This document shows positions 17,489 to 41,167 of a stretch of DNA of 64,000 nt, one piece after another. Numbering within the stretch: the stretch's first letter is position 1; each line of letters opens with the position of its first letter. Both the position numbers and the translations under genes were made by a program. Source of the DNA: Parapedobacter soli (lineage in GTDB: Bacteria > Bacteroidota > Bacteroidia > Sphingobacteriales > Sphingobacteriaceae); assembly GCF_025460835.1 (NCBI RefSeq), contig NZ_JAMXAY010000030.1, positions 1 through 64,000 of the forward strand. The letters run 5' to 3'. Below the pieces are notes generated by a model, which was not told where the DNA came from, made no database searches, and saw only the letters and a program-made list of their open reading frames with translations.

Positions 17489-17492
17489 GTCG

Positions 17493-18113: not shown

Positions 18114-18116
18114 CAC

Positions 18117-22695: not shown

Positions 22696-22867
22696 CCGCT
22701 ATTTTCATTGCGGAGAGACGTAATCGCCGACCGCATTTATATGCGGCAAAGATACGTTACCGCGCTGTTAATTTATGTTAAAATTGTCAATAGCGGCAAA
22801 CTTTTCACTAAGTTCGCCTCTTATCTGGCGGCTCGCATCGGGCGAGACAACACATTGGAGAATCAAC

Positions 22868-24917: not shown

Positions 24918-24948
24918 TATCTTTGTATTATAATAAAAAAACAAGGAG
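24918..24948 (+). promoter_or_regulatory. Promoter -7 element and strong Shine-Dalgarno for the dioxygenase gene
   Basis: TATCTTTG at 24918-24925 matches TAnnTTTG, and AAGGAG at 24943-24948 lies 7 bases before the ATG. The strong Shine-Dalgarno site is uncommon among genes of this window and suggests high translation. Confidence 0.5.
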
Positions 24949-24955
24949 TATAATC

Positions 24956-25894: not shown

Positions 25895-25897
25895 ACT

Positions 25898-26521
25898 ATG
25901 TACATACACGAAAAGCAACTTATACAAGCTGGCAAATTGGCTGCACACGCCAAAAAGGCTGTGGTACTGCTCCATGGGCGGGGCAGTTCCGCTTCGGGCA
26001 TCCTTTCACTAAGCCACCACCTTCAGTTGGATGATGCGCTACTGCTTGCACCGCAGGCCACCAACAACTCTTGGTATCCATACAGCTTTCTGGCACCCGT
26101 GGCAAACAACCAACCGGCGCTGGATTCAGCATTGGGGCTGGTGGGCGAAGCGGAGGCTAAAGCGGCGCAATTGGGGGTCGCCCCAAATGCGCTGTACTTC
26201 GTGGGATTCTCGCAAGGGGCCTGCCTAGTCCTGGAGTACGTAGGGCGGAATGCCAAACCCTATGGTGGCGTCATCGCTTTCACCGGGGGGTTAATCGGTG
26301 AATCGCTGACGCTTAGTAATTACACCGGCGATTTTGGGGGCACGCCCATACTGATTACTTCGGGCGACAACGACCCGCATGTACCGCTATACCGGATTGA
26401 GGAAAGTGCATCGGTATTGCGTGGACTCGGTGCAAAGGTGACCCTTGAGATCTATCCCGGCAAGCCCCATAGCATCAGTCCCGATGAGACCCTGCTGGCC
26501 AACAAGGTGGTGTTGTCATAA
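25898..26521 (+). CDS. Carboxylesterase/phospholipase-type alpha/beta hydrolase (MhqD-like)
   Basis: A 207-residue cytoplasmic serine hydrolase. The oxyanion segment LLHGRGSSASG lies near residue 25, the nucleophile serine in FVGFSQGACL near residue 110, the acid in TSGDNDPHVP near residue 155 and the histidine in YPGKPHSIS near residue 188. This is the carboxylesterase 2/phospholipase group. It is translationally linked to the dioxygenase gene (3-base gap), so the two likely act in one pathway, cleaving and hydrolysing aromatic or quinone-derived products. It ends 3 bases from the convergent GH3 gene. Confidence 0.85.
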   Translation: MYIHEKQLIQAGKLAAHAKKAVVLLHGRGSSASGILSLSHHLQLDDALLLAPQATNNSWYPYSFLAPVANNQPALDSALGLVGEAEAKAAQLGVAPNALYFVGFSQGACLVLEYVGRNAKPYGGVIAFTGGLIGESLTLSNYTGDFGGTPILITSGDNDPHVPLYRIEESASVLRGLGAKVTLEIYPGKPHSISPDETLLANKVVLS

Positions 26522-26524
26522 CCA

Positions 26525-28828
26525 TCAGTCGACCAGCACGAACCGACCGCCCTGCACATCGCGCGAATTTGTGCCGACAAACACGGCAAATTCGCCGGGC
26601 TCGGCCACATAATCTAAATCGGCGTCGTAGAACTTGAGGTCTTCAGCTGTCAGCTCGAAGGTCACGTGCTGTGATTGGCCGGGGTCTAGCCATATCTTTC
26701 GGAAGCCCTTGAGTTCCTTGACGGGGCGCGTAACTGACCCTACCACATCCTGGACATAGAGCTGCACCACCTCTTCGCCGCCGCAGTCGCCCACGTTGCG
26801 AACGTCCACGCTTATCTCCAGTTTGCCTCCCGCCACTAAGGTATCGGCACTCAGCATAACCTCACTATAGGCAAAGGTGGTGTAGCTCAGGCCATAGCCA
26901 AAGGGGTAAAGCGGCTCATTCGCTACGTCTAGGTAGTTGGAGCGGAATTTTTGGAACCATTGTCCTTCGGCAAGTGGTCGCCCTGTATTCTTATGGTTGT
27001 AGTAAAGCGGTATCTGACCCACATTTTGTGGGAATGTTGCCGGTAGCTTGCCCGACGGATTGACGTCGCCAAACAGCACATCGGCCACGGCTTTGCCCGT
27101 TTCGGTACCCCCAAACCATACGTTGAGTATGGCAGGCACATGCTCGTTTTCCCAACTCAGCGTTAGCGGTCTGCCGGTGAACAGTACCAGCACCACGGGC
27201 TTACCCGTCTTCAGTAGTTCGGCCAGCAGACGTTGCTGGATATCGGGGATACCTATGTCTGTGCGGCTCGATGATTCGCCGCTCATCTCGGAGCTTTCGC
27301 CCAGTGCCGCAACAATCACATCAGCCTGCTGCGCGGTGGCCACCGCCTCGGCTAGGATTTCGGCCTCCGCCCGGTCATCACGTGGGATGGTACGGCCAAA
27401 CATCGTGGCCCGCTCTTGGTATGCCGCATCTTCCAGCAGGTTAGACCCATGGTGGCACACCAGTTTCACCTCGTTGCCCAAAACTGCCCGCATCCCTTCC
27501 AGCAAGGAGGGGGTGTGCTCCAGATCGGCACTTACACTCCACGTACCGGGCATATTACTCCCCGTATTGGCAAGCGGGCCGATTAAGGCTACGGTACCTG
27601 TTTTCTTCAGCGGCAGCAATTGGCTCTCATTTTTCAGGAGTACAAACGATTTCCCTGCGGTTTCGCGTGCCTTGGCCAAGTGAGTGGGATTGAGAATGGC
27701 CTGCTCGGCCCTTTCGTCGTTACAATAACGGAACGGATCATCAAAAAGACCCAGTTTATATTTGGCTTCCAATATCCTCCGGCAGGCGAGGTTGATGTCC
27801 GCCTCGCTCACCTTGCCCTCATCCAGTGATTTCTTCAGCGTACTGAGGAACCCCTCACCTACCATATCCATATCCACGCCTGCTTTGAGCGACCGTGCCG
27901 ACACTTCCTGCAAATCACCCAAGCCGTGGTCTATCAACTCGTTGATAGCTGTGTAGTCTGTTACCACAAAACCGTCGAAGCCCCATTGGCTACGAAGTAC
28001 ATCGGTCATGAGCCATCTGTTGGCCGTAGCAGGTACGCCATTGATGTCGTTGAAGGAGGTCATCACACTCCCGGCGCCGGCATCGATGGCGGCTTTATAG
28101 GGTGGTAAGTATTCATTATACATCCGGTGCAGGCTCATGTCGGTGGTGTTATAGTCGCGCCCTGCCTCGGCTGCGCCATATAGCGCAAAGTGTTTCACAC
28201 AGGCCATGAGCGTATTATATGCTGCCAAATCGTCGCCCTGATAGCCATGCACCATGGCCTCGGCGATCCGAGCGGTTAGGTAAGTATCTTCACCTGATCC
28301 TTCAGATATACGGCCCCAACGGGGGTCTCTTGAAATGTCGACCATGGGCGAAAACGTCCAGTTCAGCCCATCGGCGGAAGCTTCCACGGCTGCTATCCGT
28401 GCCGACTCTTCGATTAACCTGAGATCCCACGTAGCCGCCAGCCCCAACGGGATGGGAAATATGGTCTTATAGCCGTGGATAACGTCTAAGCCAAAGATAA
28501 GCGGTATCTTCAGGCGTGATTGGGTAACAGCCAGCTCCTGGGCGGCACGGATGCGTGCCACGCTGGTCATACTGAAGATACCGCCGATATTTCCAGCTTT
28601 GATCTTACCTTCCACATCGGTACTTACCACGGCCCCGGTGGTCGCCTCACCAGCGGTAACCAAGTTGAGCTGACCGATTTTCTCTTCGATGGTCATCTGT
28701 TGCATCAGTCCATCGATAAAACGATCCATTTTGGCTTTGCCCTGTCCGTATACTTGCTGGCTTACTGGACCTGTCAATAGGAATGCACCCAAAATGAGCA
28801 CGTACCATACTACATTCACTTTTCCCAT
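26525..28828 (-). CDS. GH3 beta-glucosidase (BglX type) of the PUL
   Basis: A 767-residue secreted exo-beta-glucosidase with an N-terminal signal peptide ending near residue 29. The GH3 N-terminal barrel contains LIFGLDVIHGYKTIFP near residue 113 and the nucleophile aspartate in GFVVTDYTAIN near residue 290. The alpha/beta sandwich domain spans 390-620 and the fibronectin-III-like domain is C-terminal. In this locus it would finish digestion by releasing glucose from sophoro-oligosaccharides produced by the GH144 enzymes; that linkage preference is inferred from context. It is the last gene of the PUL, 9 bases after the GH43 gene. Confidence 0.92.
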   Translation of the reverse strand: MGKVNVVWYVLILGAFLLTGPVSQQVYGQGKAKMDRFIDGLMQQMTIEEKIGQLNLVTAGEATTGAVVSTDVEGKIKAGNIGGIFSMTSVARIRAAQELAVTQSRLKIPLIFGLDVIHGYKTIFPIPLGLAATWDLRLIEESARIAAVEASADGLNWTFSPMVDISRDPRWGRISEGSGEDTYLTARIAEAMVHGYQGDDLAAYNTLMACVKHFALYGAAEAGRDYNTTDMSLHRMYNEYLPPYKAAIDAGAGSVMTSFNDINGVPATANRWLMTDVLRSQWGFDGFVVTDYTAINELIDHGLGDLQEVSARSLKAGVDMDMVGEGFLSTLKKSLDEGKVSEADINLACRRILEAKYKLGLFDDPFRYCNDERAEQAILNPTHLAKARETAGKSFVLLKNESQLLPLKKTGTVALIGPLANTGSNMPGTWSVSADLEHTPSLLEGMRAVLGNEVKLVCHHGSNLLEDAAYQERATMFGRTIPRDDRAEAEILAEAVATAQQADVIVAALGESSEMSGESSSRTDIGIPDIQQRLLAELLKTGKPVVLVLFTGRPLTLSWENEHVPAILNVWFGGTETGKAVADVLFGDVNPSGKLPATFPQNVGQIPLYYNHKNTGRPLAEGQWFQKFRSNYLDVANEPLYPFGYGLSYTTFAYSEVMLSADTLVAGGKLEISVDVRNVGDCGGEEVVQLYVQDVVGSVTRPVKELKGFRKIWLDPGQSQHVTFELTAEDLKFYDADLDYVAEPGEFAVFVGTNSRDVQGGRFVLVD

Positions 28829-28837
28829 AATTGTTGT

Positions 28838-30559
28838 TTATTCGGCCTTTGTGACCGTTGTGCGCTCGGATATCCCGTTTTCATTAAATGCTTCGACCGT
28901 GAAGAAATATTCTTGGTCCACATTAAGCCCCCTAAGCTCTAGCTCGCACTGGTCGTATACCAGCCATGAGCTGTACAGCTTATCGGGCGCAATACCCCAC
29001 CGCACATTGAAACCCTGTGTATTGCCGGGATCGGACCATGTGAGCAACGCCTCTCTCCGATCGGCGCCGCGTCTTATTTCAAGGTTATCTACCGATGTGG
29101 GCACATCACCTTCACCCACGCCGAACACCCTTATTTCCGAAATGGAAAGGTAAGGTGTCGGCACCTGGATGTTGCGGTACCGGATATAGCGGACCCGCTC
29201 GGGCGCACCCAATTCGACGTAATCATTGGGCACCTCCCGATAGTTCTGGCTCCTATCAACCAAAATGCGCCAATCTTTGCCATCCAACGATCCTTCAATC
29301 AGGTAACGGTGGTACAGTCCACCGGGTTTACCATACAGATCAGACTTGTAGTCGTTATAGTTCACTTGGAAGGCATGGACTGTCCCGGTGTTTTCGAGGT
29401 CTATTTCGAGCCATTGCTGGCTGTCGTTTTGCTCGGCCACCCAAAACGTTTTGATATGTTCGTCGGTGATGCTGGCCGCCGGATGATCACGGATGTATGA
29501 CGAGGCTTTCACGGGCTTGCGGTACGAGAGCAGCATCCAGCCGGTGAACTCGCCCATCTTTCCGGGTACATCCGGCGCATAGTGGGGGTAGTCGCCATAG
29601 GCGGTATTCGAATACATCAACCCATCCGCATCGAAGTAGGTCGGGAACATACCTATACGCCGTTCCCAGCCTATGTTCACGTCGACAGCCATGGTAGCAA
29701 AATGCCAATGGATGTTGGCGGGCCCTTTTACGGTGCTCCCGTGCCCTGCCCCGTTGATGAATCCACCCGGCTTGTAGCAAAATGGATTGTTGGGCGCATA
29801 TTCATACGGCCCTAACGGCGTGCTGCCGACATATACCCCATCGCCATAAACATTGAACTCCGTACCTGGAGCCGCATATTGCAGGTAATACTTGCCGCCG
29901 TGCTTCACCATGGACGGCCCTTCGATATAGCCCCGCAGTACCGTATCGCTGTGGTTTTCGCCAAATCGCTCCCAGCCATGTTTTTCGCCGTCGAGGTTGA
30001 ACAGTTCGATGGTACCCGAAGAAGGAATGAAACGGTTGGTGCGGTCGAGTGTCTTCACCCGGATGGGGAACTTGTTGGAGGAACCCCAAAACATATAAGC
30101 TTGGCCGTCGTCATCGATAAAAAGATCCGGATCCTGCAAATCGGCCAGCACGGAGGGCACCGCCTTCCAATCGCCTTTCTTCGGGTTATCGGTATAGAGG
30201 ATAGCCATCGATCCTGAGGGATTTCCCGTAACGTATAGCACGGAGTCTTTGTAGTTGTGTGCGGTAGGTGCGTTTGACCCTTCAAAATACCATTTCTCGG
30301 GGCGGACGAAGGACCACGTATGGAGGTCTGGCGAATGCCAATAGCCCATAGACCGGGTGACGAACATATAGTATTCGCCCCGGAACCCCACCACAGTGGG
30401 GTCGGCACCCGAGCGGTACGATAGGCTGTCAAACCGTGTGGCATAGGCATAATCCAGGTTGAGTGGATTGCAGTAGGTCTGCTGCCGGAGCGCCTGACCA
30501 TAGCTTTCAAGTGCTATTAACGTCAATAGGATGAGTATAATTTCTTTGGAATGTCTCAT
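28838..30559 (-). CDS. GH43-family glycosidase with discoidin and FN3-like domains
   Basis: A 573-residue secreted protein. After the signal peptide (to about residue 23) comes a five-bladed GH43 catalytic domain: base Asp in SGADPTVV near residue 45, the second Asp in LQDPDLFIDDD near 145, and the acid Glu in GYIEGPSMV near 215. Residues about 345-490 are an F5/8 type C (discoidin) carbohydrate-binding domain, and the last 85 are fibronectin-III-like. GH43 enzymes mostly remove arabinose or xylose, some galactose; the specificity is not readable. ATG 30559 is chosen since upstream ATGs would lie inside the sulfatase gene and lack a signal peptide. Confidence 0.86.
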   Translation of the reverse strand: MRHSKEIILILLTLIALESYGQALRQQTYCNPLNLDYAYATRFDSLSYRSGADPTVVGFRGEYYMFVTRSMGYWHSPDLHTWSFVRPEKWYFEGSNAPTAHNYKDSVLYVTGNPSGSMAILYTDNPKKGDWKAVPSVLADLQDPDLFIDDDGQAYMFWGSSNKFPIRVKTLDRTNRFIPSSGTIELFNLDGEKHGWERFGENHSDTVLRGYIEGPSMVKHGGKYYLQYAAPGTEFNVYGDGVYVGSTPLGPYEYAPNNPFCYKPGGFINGAGHGSTVKGPANIHWHFATMAVDVNIGWERRIGMFPTYFDADGLMYSNTAYGDYPHYAPDVPGKMGEFTGWMLLSYRKPVKASSYIRDHPAASITDEHIKTFWVAEQNDSQQWLEIDLENTGTVHAFQVNYNDYKSDLYGKPGGLYHRYLIEGSLDGKDWRILVDRSQNYREVPNDYVELGAPERVRYIRYRNIQVPTPYLSISEIRVFGVGEGDVPTSVDNLEIRRGADRREALLTWSDPGNTQGFNVRWGIAPDKLYSSWLVYDQCELELRGLNVDQEYFFTVEAFNENGISERTTVTKAE

Positions 30560-30582
30560 CCTACGAATTTTTTCCGGGAGCG

Positions 30583-32076
30583 TCAATAGGTGCCCCGATA
30601 AAGGTGATCGATGCGTTTCTGGTAAATTTTCTTGAGCGGTATCTGCAACCCATCGGTAGACTCCAGCCAGTCCCACAGTTCCCGTTTAAGCTGGCCCGCA
30701 ACGTCTTGCGACTCAGGGTCGCGGATGAGATTGTTCATTTCATGCGGATCTGTTTGCAAGTCGTACAGCTCGTTGGTATCCCATAGCCCGTGGTTGAAGA
30801 TGTATTTATAACGGTCTGTCCGAATGGCGAACACGGTGGGGGTTTGCGGAAAGGCCCATTCCCAATAGTATTCGTAGAAAACTCGATCGCGCCACCCGGC
30901 GATGGGTTTACCCTCCAATAGGGGCAGGAACGAATGGCCTTGCATCTGAGCCGGGGTGCCAATCCCCGCTATATCCAAGATTGTCGGTCCGATATCCACA
31001 TTCATTACCATCTGCTTCACCTGGGTATTCGGCTCTATCAGGCCGGGTGCCCACGCTAGCAACGGTACGCGCATGGAGGCCTCATAAGCATTTCGCTTAT
31101 CGATAAGCCCTTGCTCACCGAACAAAAAACCATTATCACCCATGTAGAAGACCAATGTATTTTCAGCTAGTCCGTGCTGTTCGAGCCAAGCGAGAACAGA
31201 GCCGATGCTTTCGTCCACGCTGCGCAGAGTTTCGCAGTACTGGCGGTAAAAATCGGCAAATGCAATCTGCCCATCGTACATATGGTCTACCCCATGCCAG
31301 CTGTACCGCTGTTTACGCACCCAATCGGGGATGCCATCGAGGTTGACGGGGCCGTCGTACGGTGTTTCGACACCCACATGCATGCTGCTATCGGTAGCGG
31401 TGAGGTACATGGATGGCGGACAAATGATGGGCATGTCTTGGTAGGTGCCCCGGTGCCGCTCTGCCGGATTGAACTCGGCATGCACCCCTTTGTGCGAGAG
31501 GTAGAGAAAAAAGGGCTGGCCGCCTTCGAGCGTATTCAGCCAGTCGATCGCGTAATCGGTGAGTAGGTCGGTGGTATAGCTGCCTTCGGGCTGTTTGACC
31601 TCCATGCCGTTGATATTGAAAGTAGGCGAGTAATACACCCCCTGGTCGCGGAAGCTCACCCATTGGTCGAAACCCGGCTGCGGGCTGCCGTCCATATTCC
31701 CCATATGCCACTTGCCGAAGAAGCCCGTTTTATAGCCTTCGGCCTGCATGTATTGGGGAAAAAACGTAAGCCCCTCGGGTAAGGGAGCACTGTTATCCAC
31801 GATGGTATGCGTGTGGGCATACTGCCCGGTAAGGATGGAAGCGCGGCTGGGCGAACACAGCGCAGTGGATACAAAGGCATTCTGCAGGTGTGCACCCTCC
31901 CTGGCCATTCGGTCCATAAACGGTGTTTCCAATCCAGGCACCTTGTTCATAAAGCCCATGAAATCAAATCGGTGATCATCGCTTAAGATGAACACCACGT
32001 TATAGGGCTTATCGGGTGCCTGGGCGAATGCGCCCAGGCACCAGTAGCATGCTACCAAAAAACAGATCGTTCTCAT
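30583..32076 (-). CDS. Secreted S1-type sulfatase
   Basis: A 497-residue formylglycine-dependent sulfatase with a signal peptide (to GAFA, near residue 18). The maturation motif C-x-P-S-R occurs in TALCSPSRASILTG near residue 75, and metal ligands in ILSDDHRFD near residue 30 and MGDNGFLFGE near 310. It removes sulfate esters from a glycan. The start is ATG 32076; an upstream TTG would add four residues. The gene is inside a PUL otherwise predicted to attack beta-1,2-glucan, so either the natural substrate is sulfated or the enzyme targets a related ester. The activating enzyme anSME is not in the window. Confidence 0.9.
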   Translation of the reverse strand: MRTICFLVACYWCLGAFAQAPDKPYNVVFILSDDHRFDFMGFMNKVPGLETPFMDRMAREGAHLQNAFVSTALCSPSRASILTGQYAHTHTIVDNSAPLPEGLTFFPQYMQAEGYKTGFFGKWHMGNMDGSPQPGFDQWVSFRDQGVYYSPTFNINGMEVKQPEGSYTTDLLTDYAIDWLNTLEGGQPFFLYLSHKGVHAEFNPAERHRGTYQDMPIICPPSMYLTATDSSMHVGVETPYDGPVNLDGIPDWVRKQRYSWHGVDHMYDGQIAFADFYRQYCETLRSVDESIGSVLAWLEQHGLAENTLVFYMGDNGFLFGEQGLIDKRNAYEASMRVPLLAWAPGLIEPNTQVKQMVMNVDIGPTILDIAGIGTPAQMQGHSFLPLLEGKPIAGWRDRVFYEYYWEWAFPQTPTVFAIRTDRYKYIFNHGLWDTNELYDLQTDPHEMNNLIRDPESQDVAGQLKRELWDWLESTDGLQIPLKKIYQKRIDHLYRGTY

Positions 32077-32093
32077 CTTACTCGTCAATAAAT

Positions 32094-33464
32094 CTACATT
32101 TTCGGGCTTTCAAATCCGAGTTTTCTTAATCCTTCCTGAATTTCCGGTGCTGCCATAAACAATTCCCAAAGCAGCCCGGTGTGGTAATTCTCGATCATCA
32201 CCGGAATGGGCCCTTGATCTATGGCCAAGTAGCGCTGCGGATACCAGTTTTCCGTTTCGCTATACGCATCGTAGAAACCATATTTCCCCCACATTTTATC
32301 GCCTAGCTGTTCATACAGGTAACGCATCATCGCTATACTTTGTTCGGGTGTATAGGGAATTGACGACAGCGCTGCCGTTGGCGAAATTACACCCCGGTCG
32401 TTGTCAGGGTTGTGCGCCGAATAGCCGTCTACGGAATAGCTGGCGGTAAATCCCCACCCGCCATCGGGCGGTCCATACCCCTTGTATCCCATTGGGTTTT
32501 CCACAGCATAGTCGTACTGGACGAGGGCATGGTTGCGGTTCAGCACCCAATAATCCGCATACCGGTCTTTCAGGCCACGTGGGTCTAAACCGAGGTACGA
32601 ATAATGCGACCAGAACAGGGGTCCTACGCCGTTGCTATCCGGCACGTTGTGCTTGAGGATAAGTGGGTGGCCATAACGCTCGGCATCGGTGGTGATGGCA
32701 CCTCCACGTGCCCACCCTTGGTGGTACACTTCGGCAGGCACGCCGTGCGTCGGCGATGAGGCTGCCAGCACATAGGTAATGAGGCACTCATCATACCCCC
32801 GAATGGGGTGGTTGGCGGCCCACCCGGCGGTAGGGCTCCAGTGCCAATAAAGCACATCCTGCCCCCCTTGGCGGTACCAATCCCATTCAATGCTTTTCCA
32901 GAGGGCGTCCGCGCGTGCAGCCAATTGCTTCTCTTGTTCATTGCCCTGCTGGAAGTATTCCCTAATGCATATCAATGCTTGTGCCATGAACGCGGTTTCT
33001 ACCAGATCACCACCATTATCGTTCTTACTAAACGGCTTGGCCTTACCCGTGGGGCCATCCAGCCAATGCGGCCATGCCCCGTGGAAACGGTCAGCTTTTC
33101 CCAGGTAATCAATCACCTGCTCAAAACGGTCCACGCCGGCTTGCCGCGTTATGAATCCGCGTTCAATACCGACGATGATTGCCATCAGCCCAAAACCACT
33201 GCCTCCAATGGTGACGACCTGCTGATCATTCTGCGGGTACTCGCCATCGATGTGGATACGTTCGCGCGCTAACCCCGATATAGGTTCCGCGCCATCCCAG
33301 AAATATTGGAAAGTCTGCCGTTGGACGAGCGTCATCAGGGAGTCGTCCGACAGCGTGGCTCCATCGTCGCCGGCAGCCTTTTGCGACGCGCCTGTGCATC
33401 CGGTTACGGCCACTAGGGCTATCAGTATGATATTTATTATTTTACTCATGATTTGTTTTAACAT
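32094..33464 (-). CDS. GH144-type endo-beta-1,2-glucanase, short paralogue
   Basis: A 456-residue lipoprotein: signal peptide with lipobox ending VTGC near residue 22. The rest is one (alpha/alpha)6 domain of the Glycoamylase Pfam family that founded CAZy GH144, whose studied members hydrolyse linear beta-1,2-glucan to sophorose and longer oligomers. Marks are QRQTFQYFWDGAEP, GGSGFGLMAI, FSKNDNGGDLVETAF, DVLYWHWSPTAGW and LAIDQGPIPVMIENYHTGL. It is a tandem paralogue of the gene before it. The ATG overlaps the preceding stop as TAATG, so translation is coupled. Confidence 0.87.
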   Translation of the reverse strand: MLKQIMSKIINIILIALVAVTGCTGASQKAAGDDGATLSDDSLMTLVQRQTFQYFWDGAEPISGLARERIHIDGEYPQNDQQVVTIGGSGFGLMAIIVGIERGFITRQAGVDRFEQVIDYLGKADRFHGAWPHWLDGPTGKAKPFSKNDNGGDLVETAFMAQALICIREYFQQGNEQEKQLAARADALWKSIEWDWYRQGGQDVLYWHWSPTAGWAANHPIRGYDECLITYVLAASSPTHGVPAEVYHQGWARGGAITTDAERYGHPLILKHNVPDSNGVGPLFWSHYSYLGLDPRGLKDRYADYWVLNRNHALVQYDYAVENPMGYKGYGPPDGGWGFTASYSVDGYSAHNPDNDRGVISPTAALSSIPYTPEQSIAMMRYLYEQLGDKMWGKYGFYDAYSETENWYPQRYLAIDQGPIPVMIENYHTGLLWELFMAAPEIQEGLRKLGFESPKM

Positions 33465-35452
33465 TATAATTTCGGACTGTCGAAGCCCAGTTTACGCAAT
33501 GCGGCCTGCACCTCGGGCGCGCTCATGAAGAGGTCCCAAAGGAGGCCGGTACGGTAGTTTTCAATCATCGCAATAATTGGCCCCTGATCAATCGCTAGGT
33601 ACGAGCCGGCTACCCACTGCTCGGTAAGGTTAAAGGCATCGTAAAACCCATACGTACCCCAAAGGCGGTCGCCCAACGTATAATAGAAAAACTTCAATGC
33701 GGCCATTGACTCTTCCGGGGTATACGGGAATGCCGACAGGGCAGCCGACGGGGTGATCACGCCTAGGTCATTAGTGGGTGAATGTGCCGAGTAACCATCG
33801 TGGTTATCACTGGCGGTAAGTCCCCAACCCCCGGCTGACGGGCCGTAGCCTACATACATACGCGGATTGCGCATGCAATAACGGTAGTTGATCAAGGTGT
33901 GGTTCATGTTTTGAATCCAATAGTCGGCGTAATCATCGCTCAGTCCACGGGGGTCGATACCCAAAAATGAATACTGGCTGAAAAAGAGGGGGCCGCCCGA
34001 TGGTGGACCGAGTGGTAGTTCCACTCCTTCGTATGTCCCGCCATTTTGCATAGCGCCATCCCGCGCCCAGCCGCTGTGGTATACGTCTGCGTCAATACTA
34101 TGCGTAGGTGAGGCTGCCGCCAGCACATAGGTAATGAGGCTTTCGTTCCATCCCCGTATCGGCAGGTTCATGGCCCACTCCTTGTCCGGCGACCAATGCC
34201 AATAGAGCACATCCTGGCCATCGCGCCGGTACCAATCCCACTCTACGGACTTCCATAGGTCGTCGATGCGATCGATAAGCTGCTTTTCGGCTGGCGTGCC
34301 GGCTGAAAGATACTGTCGCATGGCAATCAGCCCTTGCATCAATAGCGCTGTTTCTACCAGGTCGCCGCCATTATCGTTGGTACTGAAGGGTATGGCTGCA
34401 CCTGTGCTGCCATTGATCCAATGTGACCACGCTCCGTGGAACCGATCGGCCGTCTCTAAAAACGACAGTATCGTTGCCAGCCGGGTTAGCCCCTCGTCCC
34501 TCGTAATGAAACCGCGCTCTATACCCACGATAAGTGCCATCACACCAAACCCGGAGCCACCACTGGTGACGAGATCACCTGACGTGTTGCGTTCGCGCGC
34601 CATCCCGCTAGCGGGATGCGCGAAGTCCCAGAAGTACTTGAACGTTTGCCGTTGCACCAAGGTGAGCAGCTCTTCGTCTGATATAACAGGGAATTTCGGC
34701 TCGGGGGCCGCCGTGGTGTATATGGTTTTTTCCAATCCTTTGAACCTTTCCCCCCCTGCACCAACCAATGCATCCGAAATCTGCAATTCGTATTTCGTGA
34801 AGTCAAGCAGCGGTGTGTTGCTGGTTATACTTAGCGATTGGCCATCGGTGGCAAGCGCCACGTTGAGGGCAACCGCACCGGCGGCGCCCACCAAAGCAAC
34901 GGCCTGTTGTGCTGTAGCGGCATCCAACGGACCTGAAAAGCGGATGGTTATCCCCAAATCAAGCGGCACATCGAATAAGATGGTCGATTGGCCGGCGGGC
35001 TCACCTTGTATTTCGATGGCGGTAACCGCCAAGTTGTCCATCACTGTCTTAAACCGTACCTTGTATGCTTGGCCACCACTACCGTCACTACCTTTCAACT
35101 GCTCGGAAACATCGATTGTGTACACCGTATTGCTTAACAAAGGACCAGCGGGATGCACCACCACGGTAGCTCCATTTGAAAGGAAGCTCAAATTTATTGG
35201 CGTTGTTCCGCCATCATGTGAGAGCGTAATCGCTGTATTGGCCAAAGAGGTGTTCACGGGCCCCGAGAACTCCAGGGTGATGCTCCGGTCAGTAGGCAAA
35301 TCGGACACTACACTATCGAATGTCAGTTCCACGTCGCCAATCATCACACGTTGCAGCGCAAGCATGCCGATACGGTCCTTTTTACATTGTACCACCAACA
35401 AGGCGAGGCATAATGAACATATAATCCGTATCGGCATTCCTGCGTTTACCAT
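33464..35452 (-). CDS. GH144-type glucanase with two N-terminal Ig-like domains
   Basis: A 662-residue lipoprotein. The lipobox cysteine ends LALLVVQC near residue 20. Residues about 45-145 and 150-250 are two repeats in the style of bacterial Ig-like domain 5 (ITLEFSGPVNTSLAN and ITIRFSGPLDAATAQ). The GH144 domain fills the remaining 400 residues and aligns along its whole length with the next gene. The Ig-like domains probably hold the catalytic part away from the cell surface. The start at 35452 avoids overlap with the upstream gene; longer and shorter ATGs are possible. Confidence 0.87.
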   Translation of the reverse strand: MVNAGMPIRIICSLCLALLVVQCKKDRIGMLALQRVMIGDVELTFDSVVSDLPTDRSITLEFSGPVNTSLANTAITLSHDGGTTPINLSFLSNGATVVVHPAGPLLSNTVYTIDVSEQLKGSDGSGGQAYKVRFKTVMDNLAVTAIEIQGEPAGQSTILFDVPLDLGITIRFSGPLDAATAQQAVALVGAAGAVALNVALATDGQSLSITSNTPLLDFTKYELQISDALVGAGGERFKGLEKTIYTTAAPEPKFPVISDEELLTLVQRQTFKYFWDFAHPASGMARERNTSGDLVTSGGSGFGVMALIVGIERGFITRDEGLTRLATILSFLETADRFHGAWSHWINGSTGAAIPFSTNDNGGDLVETALLMQGLIAMRQYLSAGTPAEKQLIDRIDDLWKSVEWDWYRRDGQDVLYWHWSPDKEWAMNLPIRGWNESLITYVLAAASPTHSIDADVYHSGWARDGAMQNGGTYEGVELPLGPPSGGPLFFSQYSFLGIDPRGLSDDYADYWIQNMNHTLINYRYCMRNPRMYVGYGPSAGGWGLTASDNHDGYSAHSPTNDLGVITPSAALSAFPYTPEESMAALKFFYYTLGDRLWGTYGFYDAFNLTEQWVAGSYLAIDQGPIIAMIENYRTGLLWDLFMSAPEVQAALRKLGFDSPKL

Positions 35453-35459
35453 CCTATCG

Positions 35460-36536
35460 CTAGTTATCTTCAAAAATGGTTTTCACTTCTTCTTGGGTCA
35501 GTGACTTATCGAAAATCCGCAGTTCGTCGATGAGACTCAGGTCGGATAAGTGATTCCATTCGGTAAAGTTGGGTGCTCCGGAACCGATGGTCAACCCATC
35601 GCAATCTGCCCAGCTGATACCGGGATAGGTACCTTGGCTTACTACATTTCCATTAATATATACTGCACATTGGTCGCCGGCGATGGTAAACGCCACATGT
35701 ACCCAATCACTGGTCGCATCGATATCCGCTGCAGCCCCGCCATCAAACCAATTATCTGCTGTACCGTTACCCACGTTCAACTTGATACGCTGCTTCCCGC
35801 CCGCATTTTCCCGGAATAACCGGAAACCGCTCGTCCGATTGTTATTCGTAGGTCCCGGTGGGCTTATGGTCAGGATACCCGCCCGGTCGGGGGTTGCATT
35901 AACTTTGTACCAAAACGACGCACTGAATTCGTTGTTGATCACATCGGCAGCGGGCAACGAAATATAGCTGCCCGTAGTGTTGGCGTAGGCACGGCCCGAT
36001 TTGCCTGCTGCGAAGCCGGGGTTACCGACTTTGGTGGCTGTGATATTTTCCAGCAAATCGAGGTATATATCCCCCTCGAACGGCATGTAAAAAATCTCAC
36101 CGTCATACTTTGCCTGGTATATGTTACTGATTTCAAATGCGAAACTCTTCGTTGTCGATTTCCCAGACACATCGGTAGCCGTCACGTCGACCGTATAATC
36201 GCCAACGGGCAGGGTCTCGCTAAGATGCGAGGCTGCAATACGCCGGTAATCTTTGAAATCAGTCAACGTTTCCAACGTAGTTCCATTGAGCGCCAGGGTT
36301 ACCGAGGCAATCTCGATATCGTCTGTTACCTCAAACTCAAAGTTCACCTGCGTCGACTCATCCGTAAACGGGATCAGCAGTGTTGCGTTAGTCGGATAGC
36401 CGATAGTTACCTGCGGCGGCGCCTCATCCGCCCCTGGTTGTACAGCCGTAATATCATCGATATAGCCATCTTGGCATGCAGTGGTAGCAACAACTGCCAC
36501 TACAGCTACAGCCAACATTTTATAGATCTTTTTCAT
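35460..36536 (-). CDS. LamG-domain surface glycan-binding lipoprotein
   Basis: A 358-residue lipoprotein (lipobox ATTAC near residue 20) in the position that surface glycan-binding proteins occupy after susD. Residues about 40-140 are an Ig/PKD-like fold (NFEFEVTDDIEIASVTL, VTATDVSGKS). Residues about 150-355 are a concanavalin-like LamG jelly roll (ASFWYKVNATPDRAG, WVHVAFTIAGDQCAVYING, LIDELRIFDKSLT). It probably holds the polysaccharide at the cell surface. An ATG two codons earlier at 36542 is also possible. No enzyme motif is seen. Confidence 0.82.
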   Translation of the reverse strand: MKKIYKMLAVAVVAVVATTACQDGYIDDITAVQPGADEAPPQVTIGYPTNATLLIPFTDESTQVNFEFEVTDDIEIASVTLALNGTTLETLTDFKDYRRIAASHLSETLPVGDYTVDVTATDVSGKSTTKSFAFEISNIYQAKYDGEIFYMPFEGDIYLDLLENITATKVGNPGFAAGKSGRAYANTTGSYISLPAADVINNEFSASFWYKVNATPDRAGILTISPPGPTNNNRTSGFRLFRENAGGKQRIKLNVGNGTADNWFDGGAAADIDATSDWVHVAFTIAGDQCAVYINGNVVSQGTYPGISWADCDGLTIGSGAPNFTEWNHLSDLSLIDELRIFDKSLTQEEVKTIFEDN

Positions 36537-36566
36537 CTCCATATTTCATTTAAATCCCTAACTGGT

Positions 36567-38102
36567 TTACTGATTCTGGTCCCTCAACTGGGGTAAAATG
36601 TCTTGTTGCTGCAATGGGTAGGGGTAAAACCTATCCGTAGCCGCGTCATACGTACGTCCGCCGTATGAGAGTTCGGCCGTACGGCCGTTCCGTACGAGGT
36701 CATAAAATCGGATACCCCATTCGCCGGCAAATTCGGCAAGCTTCTCGTCTAGCACTTGGTCTAGCGTAACGCTGCTGAGTGGGCCAAGCCCTACGCGGCC
36801 ACGTACTTCGTTCACCGCGGCATCGGCCGTCATCGCCGAACTCGTAGCTCCATTCACCAATGCCTCTGCGTGTATCAGCAACACCTCCGCGTAGCGTATG
36901 CAGGTGAAATTTTTGTTTTCACCGTAAGCGGTACGGCCTTGGGTAAGCATGGTTGACGGCCAATAATGTTTACCACTGTAGAACTTGGTCCTCACGCTGT
37001 TGTTGAACTGATCGCCGTCGGCCGTCACATTTGATATCCAGCTTGGCGCACCGGGATAGGCATTGCGTAACTCAGTGATGCCGTCGGGGGTAAATATCAC
37101 GGTGGCTTCCAACCGCTCGCGCTCGCCGCGGTCGAGCATGAATTGGATATATTTCATGCTGGGTTCCCAGAAGCCCCATCCACCGCTTGATCCGCTACGG
37201 GCGGGGGTCCAGCTTGTAGGGCCGAAGAAATCCCACAGGTATTTATTTGACGTACCGGTAGGGGTGCCGTAATCTGAATATTGCAGCTCCAGCAGGTTTT
37301 CGTTATTGAGTTTGCCCTGCAGCTTGAACAGGTGGTAGAAATCGGGCTCCAGACTAAACAATCCACTGCTGATGATCTGCCCAGTTGCTTCGGCCACCGC
37401 CGGGTAATTTTTCAATTCGAGGTTGGCCAATGCTTTCACCGCATACGCCGTATAGCGGGTGATGCCTCCGGGTATGTCCGTCCGCTGGTTAGGGCGCACG
37501 GTTGGCAGCAGCGGGATTGCCTCATCCATCAGTGCAGAAACGTGCTGCATCACCTGTTCGAAACTCGACAGCTCGGCGTTGAACAGCTGGCTGGGCTGTG
37601 AGGTGGTAGGAATTAATATACTGCCCCACATACGTGCCAGTTGGAGGAATTCAAACCCTTGCATCACTTTGATTTCGGCGATGTATTGCTGTGCGGTACC
37701 CTGGTTTGCACCTGCTTCCTGGTATTTCTGGATCTCTTCAATGGCTCCCTGCCAGTAGATCAGATCGCTATAAAGGCTTGTCCATGCATTATTCAAAGCC
37801 CAGAAGTTACGGTCGTACCTGAAGCTGTCTGCTTCTGCAAACAGTGGTTGGTCGCCCCGACCACCGATATCGATATCGTCACCCCGTACACTGATGGTTG
37901 GGTAAACCTCCCACCCCATATCATACAATTGGTTGTATGCGCCATATAGCATCAACACCATATTCTGGGTTTGCGTATAATCGGTCCCTTCAGCAATCTG
38001 CTGGTTTTCCAACGGTTCATCCAATAAACCGCTACACGATGTGCCTAGCAATAGTCCAATGGAAACCATTGCCACAAATTGGATATTTCGTATCGCTTTC
38101 AT
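36567..38102 (-). CDS. SusD/RagB-family glycan-binding lipoprotein
   Basis: A 511-residue outer-membrane lipoprotein that forms the lid of the SusC transporter. The lipobox is LLGTSC near residue 23. The body shows the TPR-like helical core of SusD, with IAEIKVMQGFEFLQLARMWG near residue 145 and the C-terminal segment FTCIRYAEVLLIHAEAL near residue 390, then LAEFAGEWGIRFYDLVRNG. It follows susC by 23 bases. Ligand specificity cannot be read, but the downstream enzymes suggest a beta-1,2-linked glucan. Confidence 0.95.
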   Translation of the reverse strand: MKAIRNIQFVAMVSIGLLLGTSCSGLLDEPLENQQIAEGTDYTQTQNMVLMLYGAYNQLYDMGWEVYPTISVRGDDIDIGGRGDQPLFAEADSFRYDRNFWALNNAWTSLYSDLIYWQGAIEEIQKYQEAGANQGTAQQYIAEIKVMQGFEFLQLARMWGSILIPTTSQPSQLFNAELSSFEQVMQHVSALMDEAIPLLPTVRPNQRTDIPGGITRYTAYAVKALANLELKNYPAVAEATGQIISSGLFSLEPDFYHLFKLQGKLNNENLLELQYSDYGTPTGTSNKYLWDFFGPTSWTPARSGSSGGWGFWEPSMKYIQFMLDRGERERLEATVIFTPDGITELRNAYPGAPSWISNVTADGDQFNNSVRTKFYSGKHYWPSTMLTQGRTAYGENKNFTCIRYAEVLLIHAEALVNGATSSAMTADAAVNEVRGRVGLGPLSSVTLDQVLDEKLAEFAGEWGIRFYDLVRNGRTAELSYGGRTYDAATDRFYPYPLQQQDILPQLRDQNQ

Positions 38103-38125
38103 AATAATCTCTTCTCCTTAATGGT

Positions 38126-41100
38126 TTAAAGTTTAATTGTTACGCCCAAGGTATAGATGGCCGGTATCGGATATACCTCGCGATCCACGCCGCTGGCCAC
38201 CTCTGGATTGAATCCATTGTATTTGAATACGGTAAGGGGGCGGTCGGCAGTTAGCGTAACCCTCGTTTCGGGCCACGTTACACCGTTGATTTCCCTACCC
38301 AGGAATGAATAAGAAAGGCGGACGTTCTGCAACCTGAAATACGACCCAGGTTCTACGAAATAGCTGCTCATCACCTGGTTCCACGACCTACGGAGCCCAG
38401 ACGCCGATGGGTAATTCTTCGGGGAGCCCCCTTCTTCGGTCCAGAAGTTGGTGGCCAGGTCGGCATCGATGTTGGTATCGTTGGTAAAAATCATTTCACC
38501 GCGTTTTCTATTGAGGATGTGGTATCCGGTTTGCCCTTGCAGCAACGCTGCAAATTCCAGCTTCTTATAGCGGAACCCAAGATTGGCACCCCAGGTGAAA
38601 TCGGGCAGGTACGAGCCCAATATTACGCGGTCTTGGTCGTCGATGAGGCCGTCGCCGTTTTGGTCTTTGAAGATCAGGTCACCGGGTACGAGGCTCTTTT
38701 CTGCTGCGAAATCTGCATTATACGTGCTTTGGATTTGCTGGTCGGTATCGAATACACCCGTTACCTCATAGCCGTAAAATGCCTGGTACGGCTGGCCTAT
38801 GATGGAACGCTGGCGGAACTCTGCTGAGCCGGCATTCAGGCCGTCGGCACCACCCAACCCCAATACTTTGTTCTTGAGCGTGGCGATGTTTCCACCAATG
38901 TTATAGGAGAAATCTTCCGACAGGTGATCGCGCCAATTGAGGTTGAGCTCCAGCCCCTGGTTCCGGATTTCACCTACACTGCGGCGCTCGGCCGACGCGA
39001 ATACCGGTGGCACGATGGTAACCGCTAGGTTTCTCGTATCGCGGATGAAATAGTCGGCTTCCAACGACAAACGGCTGTTGAGGAACTGTGCATCCACTCC
39101 GAAGTTTTTCTCTACCGTGGTTTCCCATTGCGTAATGAGGTCGAACGTTGGGTTAAGGCGTCTACCGATAACCCGGGTACCGTCAATGGCGCCGTTGTTT
39201 TCCTGCAATGTAGGCAGTCCGACCGACGGGCTGATGGCGTCGTTGCCCAACTGCCCCCATGATGCACGGAACTTCAGGAAATCGATACCGGGAACATCAA
39301 AAAATTCTTCTTGTGAGAGCACCCACCCGGCGCCCACCGTGGCGAAATTACCCCACGTCTTCTGGAACTTATTGTTCCCATCGCGCCTGAAAGTGGTATA
39401 CAGCAGGTAGCGATCATCGTAATTGTAAGCCGCACGGCCGAAAAACGAGAGGAACTGCAGGTTAGCATTCAAGGTGCCCCCGTCCGCGTCCCCAATGTTA
39501 TTTAAATCAAAGTCGGTCGCATTCGTCAGGTACCAATATTGTTCGGCCGCCCGCGACGGTGCAGGGCTGATGGCCGTACCCCGTGCGAACAGCAGTTCGC
39601 TGTATTCGCTGCGGTAGGATTGACCCAACACCACGTTCAGGTTGTGTTTACCGAAATCATCATCGTACGTCACGAAGTTATCCCACACTTGATCGTAGTC
39701 CGATGTATTCTGCCTTCGGATAGCCGATTGATGCTGCGTTACACCATCGTGGTATTCGAAGTCCACACGCCGTGTATTTACGAAGCTCAGCCCGTAGTTA
39801 TACTGTGTTCGGAACTTCAACTTCTGTTCCCACAAGGCCACCTCGGCGTGGAAGTTACCCGCCAGTTTAGCCACATGGTTGCGGTTATCGATGTATTCCA
39901 GTGGGAAGAATGGATTCTGGACACCCCGATATCCAAGCTTTTGCGCGTTGGCATATTTCACGGGCGACGCATCGGTGTTGTCTTCATCATAGACCGGTAA
40001 AATCGGTACGGAAAAATACGCCCGGAACCAAGCGGTATTTTCACCGTTGTATTGGCGGGCCGTGCTGACGTTAAAATTACCACCTACGTTTAACCAATCT
40101 TTCACCTTGCTATCCACTTTTACACGGAAATTCAACCGCCGGTAATCGTTGCGTTGCAAATCCAGCAGTCCTTCCTGATTGAAATAGCTGGCACCGATAG
40201 AATAACGGGTGCTTTCACCGCCGCCACTGAAGGAAAGGTTGTGGTTTTGGATTGGAGCGGGAGTCATGATCTCGTTGTACCAATCCGTATTGACATTCGG
40301 CAGATTAGGATCCAGCCGGCTGCGGCCATACCGCTGCATCGCGTTCGCTATCAAACTAATGTCGGCTTGGCTCCCTGTTGCGTTGATGTACCGCACGAAT
40401 TGCTGGGTATTTGCCATCTTCAACACATTCTGTGGATTCTGTATGCCATAGTAAGCATCGTAGACAATCTCTCCCGGTTTGTTGTATGCACCTGATTTTG
40501 TTTCGATAAGTACCACACCGTTGCCCGCCCGCACACCGTAAATGGCCGACGCCGACGCATCTTTCAACACCGATATCGTTGCAATGTCGTTGGGATTCAA
40601 GAAGTCGATGTTATCGAAAAACATTCCGTCTACCACATACAGTGGGGCTGAGTTCCCTTCAAATGACCCGATCCCCCGCAGCCGGACCGTCGGAGAGGCA
40701 CCCGGAGCCCCGTTGCTCACGATTTGGACACCGGCCACGCGCCCTTGCAATGACTGCATGGCCTGCGCATTAGGCGTCTTCGCAATGTCGTCGGCCCTTA
40801 TTGTAGCAACAGCTGTGGTAAGGTCACGCTGCCGTTGGGTACCATACCCAATCACTACGACCTCTTCCAACTCTGTCCCTTCACCTTCCAGTACCACATC
40901 GATGCTTGTTTGGTTAGCAATGGGTACCTCTTGCATGGCGTACCCCAATGAGCGGAAGACTAAGGTATCTGCTGCATTCGCATCGATGGTATAATTACCC
41001 GTCGCGTTGGTCTGTGTGGCCGTCACCGCGCCTTTCACCATTACGGTAACACCGGGTATCCCGCCCGCCGTCAATGCATCAGTTACCCGGCCGCTTACCC

Positions 41101-41167
41101 TGTGTTGTGCCTCCGCAAAAGCGGGAAGCATACACAGCAAAAAGAAGCATGTAAATAAATTCCTCAT
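38126..41167 (-). CDS. SusC/RagA TonB-dependent glycan transporter
   Basis: A 1013-residue outer-membrane receptor. A signal peptide (to about residue 20) precedes a carboxypeptidase-D regulatory-like domain (HRVSGRVTDALTAGGIPGV, residues 22-110), the TonB plug (TTAVATIRADDIAK and AMQSLQGRVAGVQI, about 110-230) and a 22-strand barrel ending in a typical aromatic-hydrophobic C-terminus (TLGVTIKL). It lacks the extra STN domain that would signal sigma/anti-sigma control, and no such regulator is nearby. It is the first gene of the PUL and likely carries its promoter in the 540-base spacer upstream. Confidence 0.96.
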   Translation of the reverse strand: MRNLFTCFFLLCMLPAFAEAQHRVSGRVTDALTAGGIPGVTVMVKGAVTATQTNATGNYTIDANAADTLVFRSLGYAMQEVPIANQTSIDVVLEGEGTELEEVVVIGYGTQRQRDLTTAVATIRADDIAKTPNAQAMQSLQGRVAGVQIVSNGAPGASPTVRLRGIGSFEGNSAPLYVVDGMFFDNIDFLNPNDIATISVLKDASASAIYGVRAGNGVVLIETKSGAYNKPGEIVYDAYYGIQNPQNVLKMANTQQFVRYINATGSQADISLIANAMQRYGRSRLDPNLPNVNTDWYNEIMTPAPIQNHNLSFSGGGESTRYSIGASYFNQEGLLDLQRNDYRRLNFRVKVDSKVKDWLNVGGNFNVSTARQYNGENTAWFRAYFSVPILPVYDEDNTDASPVKYANAQKLGYRGVQNPFFPLEYIDNRNHVAKLAGNFHAEVALWEQKLKFRTQYNYGLSFVNTRRVDFEYHDGVTQHQSAIRRQNTSDYDQVWDNFVTYDDDFGKHNLNVVLGQSYRSEYSELLFARGTAISPAPSRAAEQYWYLTNATDFDLNNIGDADGGTLNANLQFLSFFGRAAYNYDDRYLLYTTFRRDGNNKFQKTWGNFATVGAGWVLSQEEFFDVPGIDFLKFRASWGQLGNDAISPSVGLPTLQENNGAIDGTRVIGRRLNPTFDLITQWETTVEKNFGVDAQFLNSRLSLEADYFIRDTRNLAVTIVPPVFASAERRSVGEIRNQGLELNLNWRDHLSEDFSYNIGGNIATLKNKVLGLGGADGLNAGSAEFRQRSIIGQPYQAFYGYEVTGVFDTDQQIQSTYNADFAAEKSLVPGDLIFKDQNGDGLIDDQDRVILGSYLPDFTWGANLGFRYKKLEFAALLQGQTGYHILNRKRGEMIFTNDTNIDADLATNFWTEEGGSPKNYPSASGLRRSWNQVMSSYFVEPGSYFRLQNVRLSYSFLGREINGVTWPETRVTLTADRPLTVFKYNGFNPEVASGVDREVYPIPAIYTLGVTIKL

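Follow-up and report, generated by a model that had tools for sequence, protein, structure and literature searches.

Organization of the operon

The window analysed here, a stretch of 64,000 nucleotides from Parapedobacter soli, contains an operon of eight minus-strand genes at positions 26525-41167. The sequence-only reading had described eight minus-strand genes with small gaps or overlaps, and both this arrangement and its span were borne out by the coordinates and by Pfam, which recovered the susCD pair, the LamG protein, the GH144 pair, the sulfatase, the GH43 and the GH3. The genes are as follows.

38126..41167, minus strand: susC, TonB-dependent transporter, 1013 aa (TIGR04056 767.6 bits, cut-off 368.25; Plug and CarbopepD_reg_2)
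36567..38102, minus strand: susD, surface glycan-binding lipoprotein, 511 aa (SusD_RagB, PF07980 E 1.2e-21)
35460..36542, minus strand: LamG lipoprotein, probable surface glycan-binding protein, 360 aa (Laminin_G_3, PF13385 E 8.2e-23; N-terminal Cys followed by acidic residues)
33464..35473, minus strand: GH144b, endo-β-1,2-glucanase-type, with two N-terminal Big_5 Ig-like stretches, 669 aa (PF10091 and Big_5)
32094..33464, minus strand: GH144a, endo-β-1,2-glucanase-type, probable lipoprotein, 456 aa (PF10091 272.7 bits)
30583..32088, minus strand: S1-type sulfatase with a CSPSR formylglycine motif, 501 aa (PF00884 E 3.9e-59 and SGSH_C)
28838..30559, minus strand: GH43 that also has discoidin (F5/8 type C) and fn3 domains, 573 aa counted from the ATG (PF04616 E 7.2e-27, PF00754, PF00041)
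26525..28828, minus strand: GH3 BglX-type β-glucosidase, 767 aa (NF011678 BglX 939.4 bits, cut-off 666; Glyco_hydro_3 N and C, Fn3-like)

Distances between consecutive genes range from −14 to +24 bases when the GH43 start is set at the ATG at 30559. The next gene upstream of susC is 538 bases away, and at the far end of the operon 3 bases lie between the GH3 gene and a convergently transcribed one. A chance run of open reading frames was ruled out because related genomes show a comparable gene order. The susC and susD genes are adjacent and lie together with glycan-degrading genes, which is how a polysaccharide utilization locus (PUL) is recognized in Bacteroidota. The α/β-hydrolase gene at 25898-26521 was considered as a PUL esterase and left out, since it lies on the opposite strand and adjoins a glyoxalase-family gene. 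No local regulator (HTCS, SusR or ECF/anti-sigma) was found in the eight operon genes or in four nearby genes, which encode an S41 protease, the glyoxalase, the α/β-hydrolase and a receiver-PglZ protein; some PUL definitions need no regulator. The Bacteroidota-type promoter pattern matched twice in the window, against 1.56 matches expected by chance, and none of these lay near susC.

The GH144 pair and its GH3 partner

The identification of the tandem pair as GH144 enzymes proved solid. The PF10091 family scored 252 bits in GH144b and 272.7 bits in GH144a, far above the curated cut-off of 27 (E-values for the two proteins, 6e-75 and 2.8e-81). GH144a is close to the catalytic domain of CpSGL, the GH144 endo-β-1,2-glucanase of Chitinophaga pinensis (5gzh, 5gzk), matching 5gzh with an E-value of 1.4e-199 across residues 29-455. 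Six CpSGL residues, D135, D139, E142, E211, F268 and Y330, are conserved in both operon proteins, the positions being counted by hand on the GH144a-CpSGL alignment. In CpSGL, E211 is the general acid, D135, D139 and E142 are critical for activity, and F268 and Y330 are clan residues; PMC12102758 regards the six variously as catalytic, as candidates or as defining the clan. GH144b differs from CpSGL by its two additional Ig-like stretches. Its AF2 model (mean pLDDT 87.0) gave TM scores, by target length, of 0.95 to 4gl3 and 0.92 to CpSGL 5gzk.

We take Parabacteroides distasonis BDI_3064 (5z06), another GH144 protein, to belong to the exolytic GH144 type. That type is described, though not under the name BDI_3064, in PMC8861115. 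GH144b matched BDI_3064 less well than 4gl3 or CpSGL; it is therefore probably not of the BDI_3064 type, and this assignment was set aside. A third, distant GH144 is encoded elsewhere in the same genome; its residues 32-721 match BDI_3064 (5z06) with an E-value of 2.2e-109.

The sequence-only reading had proposed that the two paralogues are surface and periplasmic forms. Read by the lipobox and export-signal rules, the N-terminus of GH144b has a Cys followed by KKD, and that of GH144a a Cys with no acidic residues nearby, so that a surface location for GH144b and a periplasmic one for GH144a are plausible. A single GH144, with no GH144b, is present in three of the seven other Parapedobacter loci compared.

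The GH3 enzyme matched 3u48 and 5xxl, the latter presumably BT_3567, with E-values of 0. Taken with this GH3 partner, the GH144 pair points to a β-1,2-glucan backbone, an assignment that is well supported at the level of enzyme families.

The sulfatase

The sulfatase carries CSPSR at residues 78-82, and D37, D38, C78, R82, K126, H128, H203, D318, N319 and K331, which we take, with their roles, to make up the sulfate site, are all present. Its best solved relatives are 9s03 and 7p24. The P. soli genome holds six FGE-domain matches over the cut-off, a class in which not all proteins are true FGEs. Membership of the S1_11 subfamily is doubtful. In S1_11 the recognition triad uses His for O3 and Asp/Arg for O4 (PMC10154612). 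In an alignment with S1_11-like sequences, Asp330 and Arg332 of the operon sulfatase have counterparts. The three His in the C-terminal stretch of those sequences, however, are matched by no His in sulfatases of the operon's own type, hereafter the window type. Another sulfatase type, represented by a set of nine from Sphingobacterium, Prolixibacteraceae and others, strongly matches S1_11-like solved structures, 5g2v and 7p24 being taken as S1_11.

Scoring up to three candidates per genome, we found at least 27 further window-type sulfatases with 55-66% identity, one of them a 63% copy elsewhere in the P. soli genome. Only six of these 27 are located at, or no more than 8 kb away from, a GH144 gene known to us, and the group is thus not confined to GH144 loci. 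An FGE-type maturase gene comes directly after the sulfatase gene in the two Pontibacter loci that have a sulfatase of the window type (detected in L071 by Pfam, and in L071 and L129 by profile).

S1-fold formylglycine enzymes also include phosphonate and phosphate ester hydrolases. The target might be a β-1,2-glucan of the ordinary osmoregulated or cyclic kind bearing phosphoglycerol or phosphoethanolamine, the S1-type enzyme a phosphoesterase, and no sulfated glucan would be involved. Known substituents of β-1,2-glucan include succinyl, acetyl, phosphoglycerol and phosphoethanolamine (PMC11842490, PMC10514313), and esterases and phosphoesterases would accordingly fit GH144 loci. Neither of these two papers speaks of a sulfated β-1,2-glucan: 'sulfat' is absent from both, and 'arabino' from the one searched for it. 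Metallophosphoesterase or EEP genes do occur in some GH144 loci, including those of P. tibetensis (by Pfam) and P. composti (by profile), which also keep a sulfatase. Moreover, the NCBIfam PehA model matches the operon sulfatase, although its 154.8 bits are far below the cut-off of 900. Against this, among solved relatives for which an activity is stated, the best are the carbohydrate sulfatases 7p24, 5g2v and 7lha. The FGE-type neighbour in the Pontibacter loci fits a formylglycine enzyme of either kind, sulfate and phosphate not being discriminated by it. We consider the phosphoesterase alternative unlikely, and sulfatase activity remains our preferred reading of this gene.

The GH43 enzyme

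D54, D144 and E214 of the GH43 (574-residue numbering), which we take to be the Asp, Asp, Glu triad with its usual roles, are invariant in 18 sequences. Pfam also revealed an fn3 domain that had not been part of the earlier description of this protein. The AF2 model (mean pLDDT 87.7) found 4qqs as its top match in VIA-align (Z 29.5, rmsd 2.6, 278 residues), with several kinds of GH43 close behind. The best Foldseek match was BT_3662, over 487 alignment columns; this protein was not among the 50 matches listed by VIA-align. BT_3662, described as an arabinofuranosidase active against a plant glycan, belongs with BT_3675 and others to the GH43_34 arabinofuranosidases and galactofuranosidases (PMC8939339), to which the operon GH43 is related at only 19-20% identity. 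Subfamily assignment was weak by sequence (best E 1.4e-9, or 1.2e-17 by profile) and likewise by fold. A quick tree, with duplicate genomes dropped and long branches meeting, was used only for grouping.

The resemblance to a plant-glycan enzyme would suit a locus directed at something other than β-1,2-glucan, the GH144 pair acting on another 1,2-linked or a mixed polymer. A precedent of this kind is the GH144 locus of Bacteroides xylanisolvens, whose GH35 is a β-1,2-galactosidase inactive on β-1,2-gluco-oligosaccharides (PMC11739564). However, Pfam detects no GH35 among the eight operon genes, the GH3 is BglX-type, and GH144a is very near CpSGL with the CpSGL residues conserved. Such a polymer seems to us quite improbable as the target, and we retain β-1,2-glucan as the backbone.

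Distribution of the accessory genes

According to the sequence-only reading, a sulfatase and a GH43 are not part of the known simple β-1,2-glucan loci. This did not hold: sulfatases in marine GH144 loci have been published (PMC6499787, PMC8072126), and GH43s are frequent, as detailed below, so neither gene is an oddity of the P. soli locus. Of 64 loci with a GH43 more than 50% identical to that of the operon, 46 hold a GH144; a stricter same-operon count gave 45/64 for GH144 and 24/64 for sulfatase. Among the 18 lacking a local GH144, 13 come from genomes with GH144 elsewhere and five from genomes with none, all five being MAGs. The main counts record presence anywhere in a locus; the gene caller missed genes in some loci, some end at contig ends, and possibly mis-binned MAG contigs (labelled Margulisbacteria, Williamsia, Thalassovita and Sedimentisphaerales) are included. 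Loci L034-L036 and L039-L041 derive from the same genomes as L067-L069, L119, L077 and L075, and the sets were never mixed in counts. As a control, GH144 was absent from all 14 loci in which the GH43 scan had turned up a less closely related GH43 (14 of 15 such loci, as L142 had no GH43 match in its ORF set), several of these loci being short or having a partial domain match. In 20 of the 64 loci a sulfatase gene immediately precedes the GH43 gene on its 5' side; three of these sulfatases, all from Parapedobacter, are of the window type and 17 are of other types.

For a sample across the phylum, we also took one region each from 89 of the 105 genomes in which PF10091 was matched, omitting the window's genome, four whose GH43 loci were already covered and eleven with weak or unlisted matches, and defined clusters as same-strand genes at most 4 kb apart. 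At least one accessory match was present in 41 of 51 SusCD-GH144 loci and none in 10: α/β-hydrolase in 28 (the model is broad), GH43 in 20, sulfatase in 8, GDSL in 5, EEP phosphatase in 5 and metallophosphoesterase in 1. GH43 is rather undercounted here, since the region of one genome (G021) was chosen without its GH43. The 20 GH43s are 36-67% identical to that of the operon (four above 50%, seven at 40-50% and nine at 36-39%); as few exceed 50%, they may differ in specificity. GH144 loci of named soil- and gut-type genera likewise contain sulfatases, which fall into at least two unlike types; the carriers include Sphingobacterium, Prevotella and Bacteroides muris.

Across Parapedobacter, GH144a and GH3 are constant, whereas the GH43, the sulfatase, the second GH144 and SusCD vary. 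In two genomes of the genus (G003 and G006) the sulfatase is absent and the other genes are kept in kind, as might be expected if the sulfatase and GH43 were passengers in the operon that act on another substrate. The presence of window-type sulfatases in other contexts, and of two Sphingobacterium loci with sulfatase and GH43 and no GH144 beside them, points the same way. On the other hand, sulfatases of unlike types accompany GH144 in several families, often directly 5' of the GH43, and the distant GH43s of the control had no GH144 partner at all. We therefore regard a passenger role as very unlikely, and favour enzymes that act on the glucan itself.

Discussion

The closest published GH144 loci with a sulfatase are marine. 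Lapébie et al. (2019) reported marine GH144 PULs with an added sulfatase and proposed a sulfated counterpart of a terrestrial polysaccharide (PMC6499787). The P. soli locus shares the GH144 PUL with sulfatase, but its host and the Sphingobacterium, Prevotella and Bacteroides muris carriers differ from the marine organisms of that report, the relevant part of which makes no tie between GH43 and GH144. Similarly, a cluster of Maribacter dokdonensis 62-1 shares GH3, two GH144, susCD and a sulfatase with the P. soli locus, yet its host is marine and no GH43 is named in the corresponding passage (PMC8072126, 2021). What is new here is the occurrence of sulfatases in GH144 loci of non-marine type and the split between core and variable genes within Parapedobacter.

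We propose, with a probability of roughly 0.6, that the operon is a PUL for a substituted β-1,2-glucan. The decorated target suggested by the sequence-only reading thus stands at family level for its backbone, by virtue of the GH144 pair and GH3, and is plausible for its decoration: the sulfatase and GH43 suggest sulfate and sugar decorations, chemically undescribed so far, with sulfate and furanosyl or pentosyl groups as the prediction. At the cell surface, the LamG lipoprotein and SusD would capture the glucan, and GH144b, an Ig-spaced lipoprotein, would cut it. SusC would bring the fragments in, and in the periplasm GH144a would shorten them, the sulfatase would take off the sulfate ester and the GH43 a terminal furanosyl or pentosyl group. 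GH3 would then free glucose from the bared β-1,2-gluco-oligosaccharides. The direct basis of this scheme is the gene families, the intact catalytic residues and the conserved neighbourhood, from which we infer where the proteins reside in the cell, in what order they act and which chemical groups decorate the glucan.

More tentatively, one could imagine that non-marine Bacteroidota of soil and gut genera feed on a naturally sulfated, furanosyl- or pentosyl-bearing β-1,2-glucan, a glycan never isolated, and that close relatives adapt a shared GH144/GH3 core to differently decorated forms through exchange of their GH43, sulfatase and SusCD modules. Should the sulfatase and GH43 indeed act on β-1,2-glucan, natural β-1,2-glucans would bear decorations that PMC11842490 and PMC10514313 do not report, and a marine-only view of β-1,2-glucan sulfation would be too narrow. 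With a conserved core in common and tailoring genes that differ between them, the Parapedobacter loci would provide matched enzymes for identifying these decorations.

Organisation of the operon and its surroundings

The eight minus-strand genes that the sequence-only reading had grouped together proved to form one operon, in the order susC, susD, LamG lipoprotein, GH144b, GH144a, sulfatase, GH43 and GH3, with intergenic distances from susC to GH3 of 23, 24, −14, −1, 5, 23 and 9 bases. A domain search found no regulator gene among the eight. The window is part of contig C102 in a 5.17-Mb assembly, and carries the following features.

26525-41167, minus strand: the operon
33464-35473, minus strand: GH144b, the longer enzyme, with two Big_5 Ig-like stretches
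32094-33464, minus strand: GH144a, the shorter enzyme
24923-26521, plus strand: glyoxalase-family gene, then Abhydrolase_2 esterase
22775-24421: PglZ domain fused to a response regulator
16256-17488, minus strand: GH76-like gene

The plus-strand pair and the GH3 gene end 3 bases apart, and similar-sized ORFs occupy the matching position in other Parapedobacter genomes. The response regulator-PglZ layout is the one that PorX has in the type IX secretion system. The minus-strand ORF run at about 16256-20317, which includes the GH76-like gene, is possibly a second glycan locus.

Backbone enzymes

The GH144 assignment held for both tandem enzymes. GH144a matched CpSGL, the Chitinophaga pinensis endo-β-1,2-glucanase, with an E-value of about 1e-199, and the best matches of GH144b were 4gl3 and CpSGL, that to BDI_3064 being weaker. 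The two proteins are identical at 272 of 441 aligned residues, and in the alignment both keep the equivalents of CpSGL D135, D139, E142, E211, F268 and Y330, residues treated in PMC12102758. The AF2 model of GH144b (mean pLDDT 87.0) gave TM-scores by target length of 0.95 to 4gl3 and 0.92 to CpSGL 5gzk. Elsewhere in the genome, contig C120 carries a third GH144 (locus L066, 12867-15044), a 726-residue open frame with a near-full-length BDI_3064 match. The GH3 scored above the BglX model cut-off; its nearest solved structures, 3u48 and 5xxl, obtained almost equal scores, so that this enzyme alone cannot separate β-1,2 from other β-glucosides.

Accessory genes of GH144 loci

PF10091 was found in 105 of the 296 genomes of a phylum sample, and one region per genome was read in 89 of these. 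SusC, SusD and GH144 occurred together in 51 loci, accompanied by GH3 (43 loci), GH43 (20), sulfatase (8), α/β-hydrolase (28), GDSL (5), EEP (5) or metallophosphoesterase (1), examples being checked by Pfam; 41 loci had at least one accessory match and 10 had none. The substituents known on β-1,2-glucans are succinyl, acetyl, phosphoglycerol and phosphoethanolamine (PMC11842490, PMC10514313). The esterases and phosphoesterases of GH144 loci suit these groups; neither the sulfatase nor the GH43 matches any of the four. It follows that there are decorations yet to be described, that the sulfatase is a phosphoesterase, or that both genes serve something else.

The GH43 and its partners

The GH43 has an intact catalytic triad together with discoidin and fn3 domains. 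No close solved relative was found (best E-value 1.2e-17, with a profile built from 18 sequences). Its predicted model (mean pLDDT 87.7) had BT_3662 as best Foldseek match; VIA-align placed 4qqs first (Z 29.5, 278 residues), BT_3662 not being among the matches listed. According to PMC8939339, BT_3662 is a GH43_34 arabinofuranosidase, and that subfamily also includes galactofuranosidases. We would therefore venture only as a weak guess that the enzyme releases a furanosyl group. The 20 sample GH43s are 36-67% identical to it (4 above 50%, 7 at 40-50%, 9 below 40%), a spread for which one common specificity should not be assumed.

Scanning GTDB genomes with this GH43 gave 64 loci holding a protein more than 50% identical (group alpha), with GH144 in 46, GH3 in 48, SusC and SusD in 44 and a sulfatase in 25; a stricter same-operon rule left GH144 in 45 and sulfatase in 24. 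The sulfatase lay immediately 5' of the GH43 in 20 loci, being window-type in 3 and of other types in 17. Thirteen of the 18 alpha loci without GH144 belong to genomes with GH144 elsewhere, and the remaining five are MAGs. More distant GH43s of the same scan had GH144 in 0 of 14 loci. Such a GH43 is carried by 31 of 100 relatives of the window genome, where GH144 accompanied all 14 alpha loci read and 12 of 17 loci of the second group, beta (about 40-46% identical).

In four loci (L081, L086, L088 and L102) this GH43 is on contigs of MAGs assigned to other phyla. The GH43s of L081 and L085 group on very short branches of the GH43 tree, so that L081 has probably been mis-binned. Two Sphingobacterium loci (L093 and L113) have a sulfatase-GH43 pair without adjoining GH144, and both genomes have GH144 elsewhere.

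The sulfatase

That the sulfatase is actually a phosphoesterase is a less favoured reading. The CSPSR motif and sulfate site are both intact in its sequence, and its profile matched several S1 sulfatases about equally. An Asp-Lys-Arg stretch of the enzyme aligns with S1_11-like sequences, but it has none of the three histidines found in the C-terminal stretch of those sequences. Window-type sulfatases (69-87% identical) occur in Parapedobacter and in two Pontibacter loci, both with an FGE-family gene directly after the sulfatase. Five more GH144 loci of the phylum sample (L152, L165, L167, L203, L211) have window-type sulfatases at a lower identity, 51-58%, and no GH43. Other type(s), 31-37% identical, were found in Sphingobacterium, Litoribacter, Prevotella, Bacteroides muris, Cerina and others, and a set of nine gave strong matches to 9s03, 7p24 and 5g2v.

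The sulfatase and GH43 may also serve something other than β-1,2-glucan, which we again favour less. A scan of 395 genomes, scoring at most 3 candidates per genome, gave at least 27 window-type relatives besides the operon's own, in 26 genomes including this one. Only 6 of the 27 listed are known to be in a GH144 locus or no more than 8 kb from a GH144 gene, a point against the specificity of this sulfatase for GH144 loci. The window genome has 28 PF00884 matches, fragments among them; one sulfatase on contig C1 (L267, 201516-202961) is 63% identical to the operon's and adjoins another sulfatase match.

Variation within Parapedobacter and relation to earlier work

Among eight Parapedobacter genomes, the window's included, GH144a (75-83% identical) and GH3 (80-84%) were present in all, the sulfatase in six and the second GH144 in five. 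SusC/SusD were window-type in five and dissimilar (23-36%) in three. Two genomes had just an alpha GH43, four just a beta one and two had both; the sulfatase was present in all four alpha-bearing genomes, compared with two of the four beta-only ones. A ninth genome, G001, had no match to the window GH43. Such a pattern is expected if related species face one backbone with differing decorations; drift and gene exchange would also produce it.

Lapébie et al. describe marine GH144 loci with an extra sulfatase and propose that the terrestrial glucan has a sulfated counterpart (PMC6499787). In Maribacter, one cluster combines GH3, two GH144, susCD and a sulfatase (PMC8072126). The present locus is therefore a variation on a published theme. 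No paper linking GH43 to GH144 loci was found in a search of open PMC text, and the combination may well already stand in the Lapébie supplementary tables. What may be new is the presence of sulfatases in GH144 loci from non-marine genera, the GH43 group as a frequent partner, and the variation of the locus inside one genus. Over both alternatives, we favour, with a probability of about 0.6, the view that natural β-1,2-glucans bear decorations beyond those described.
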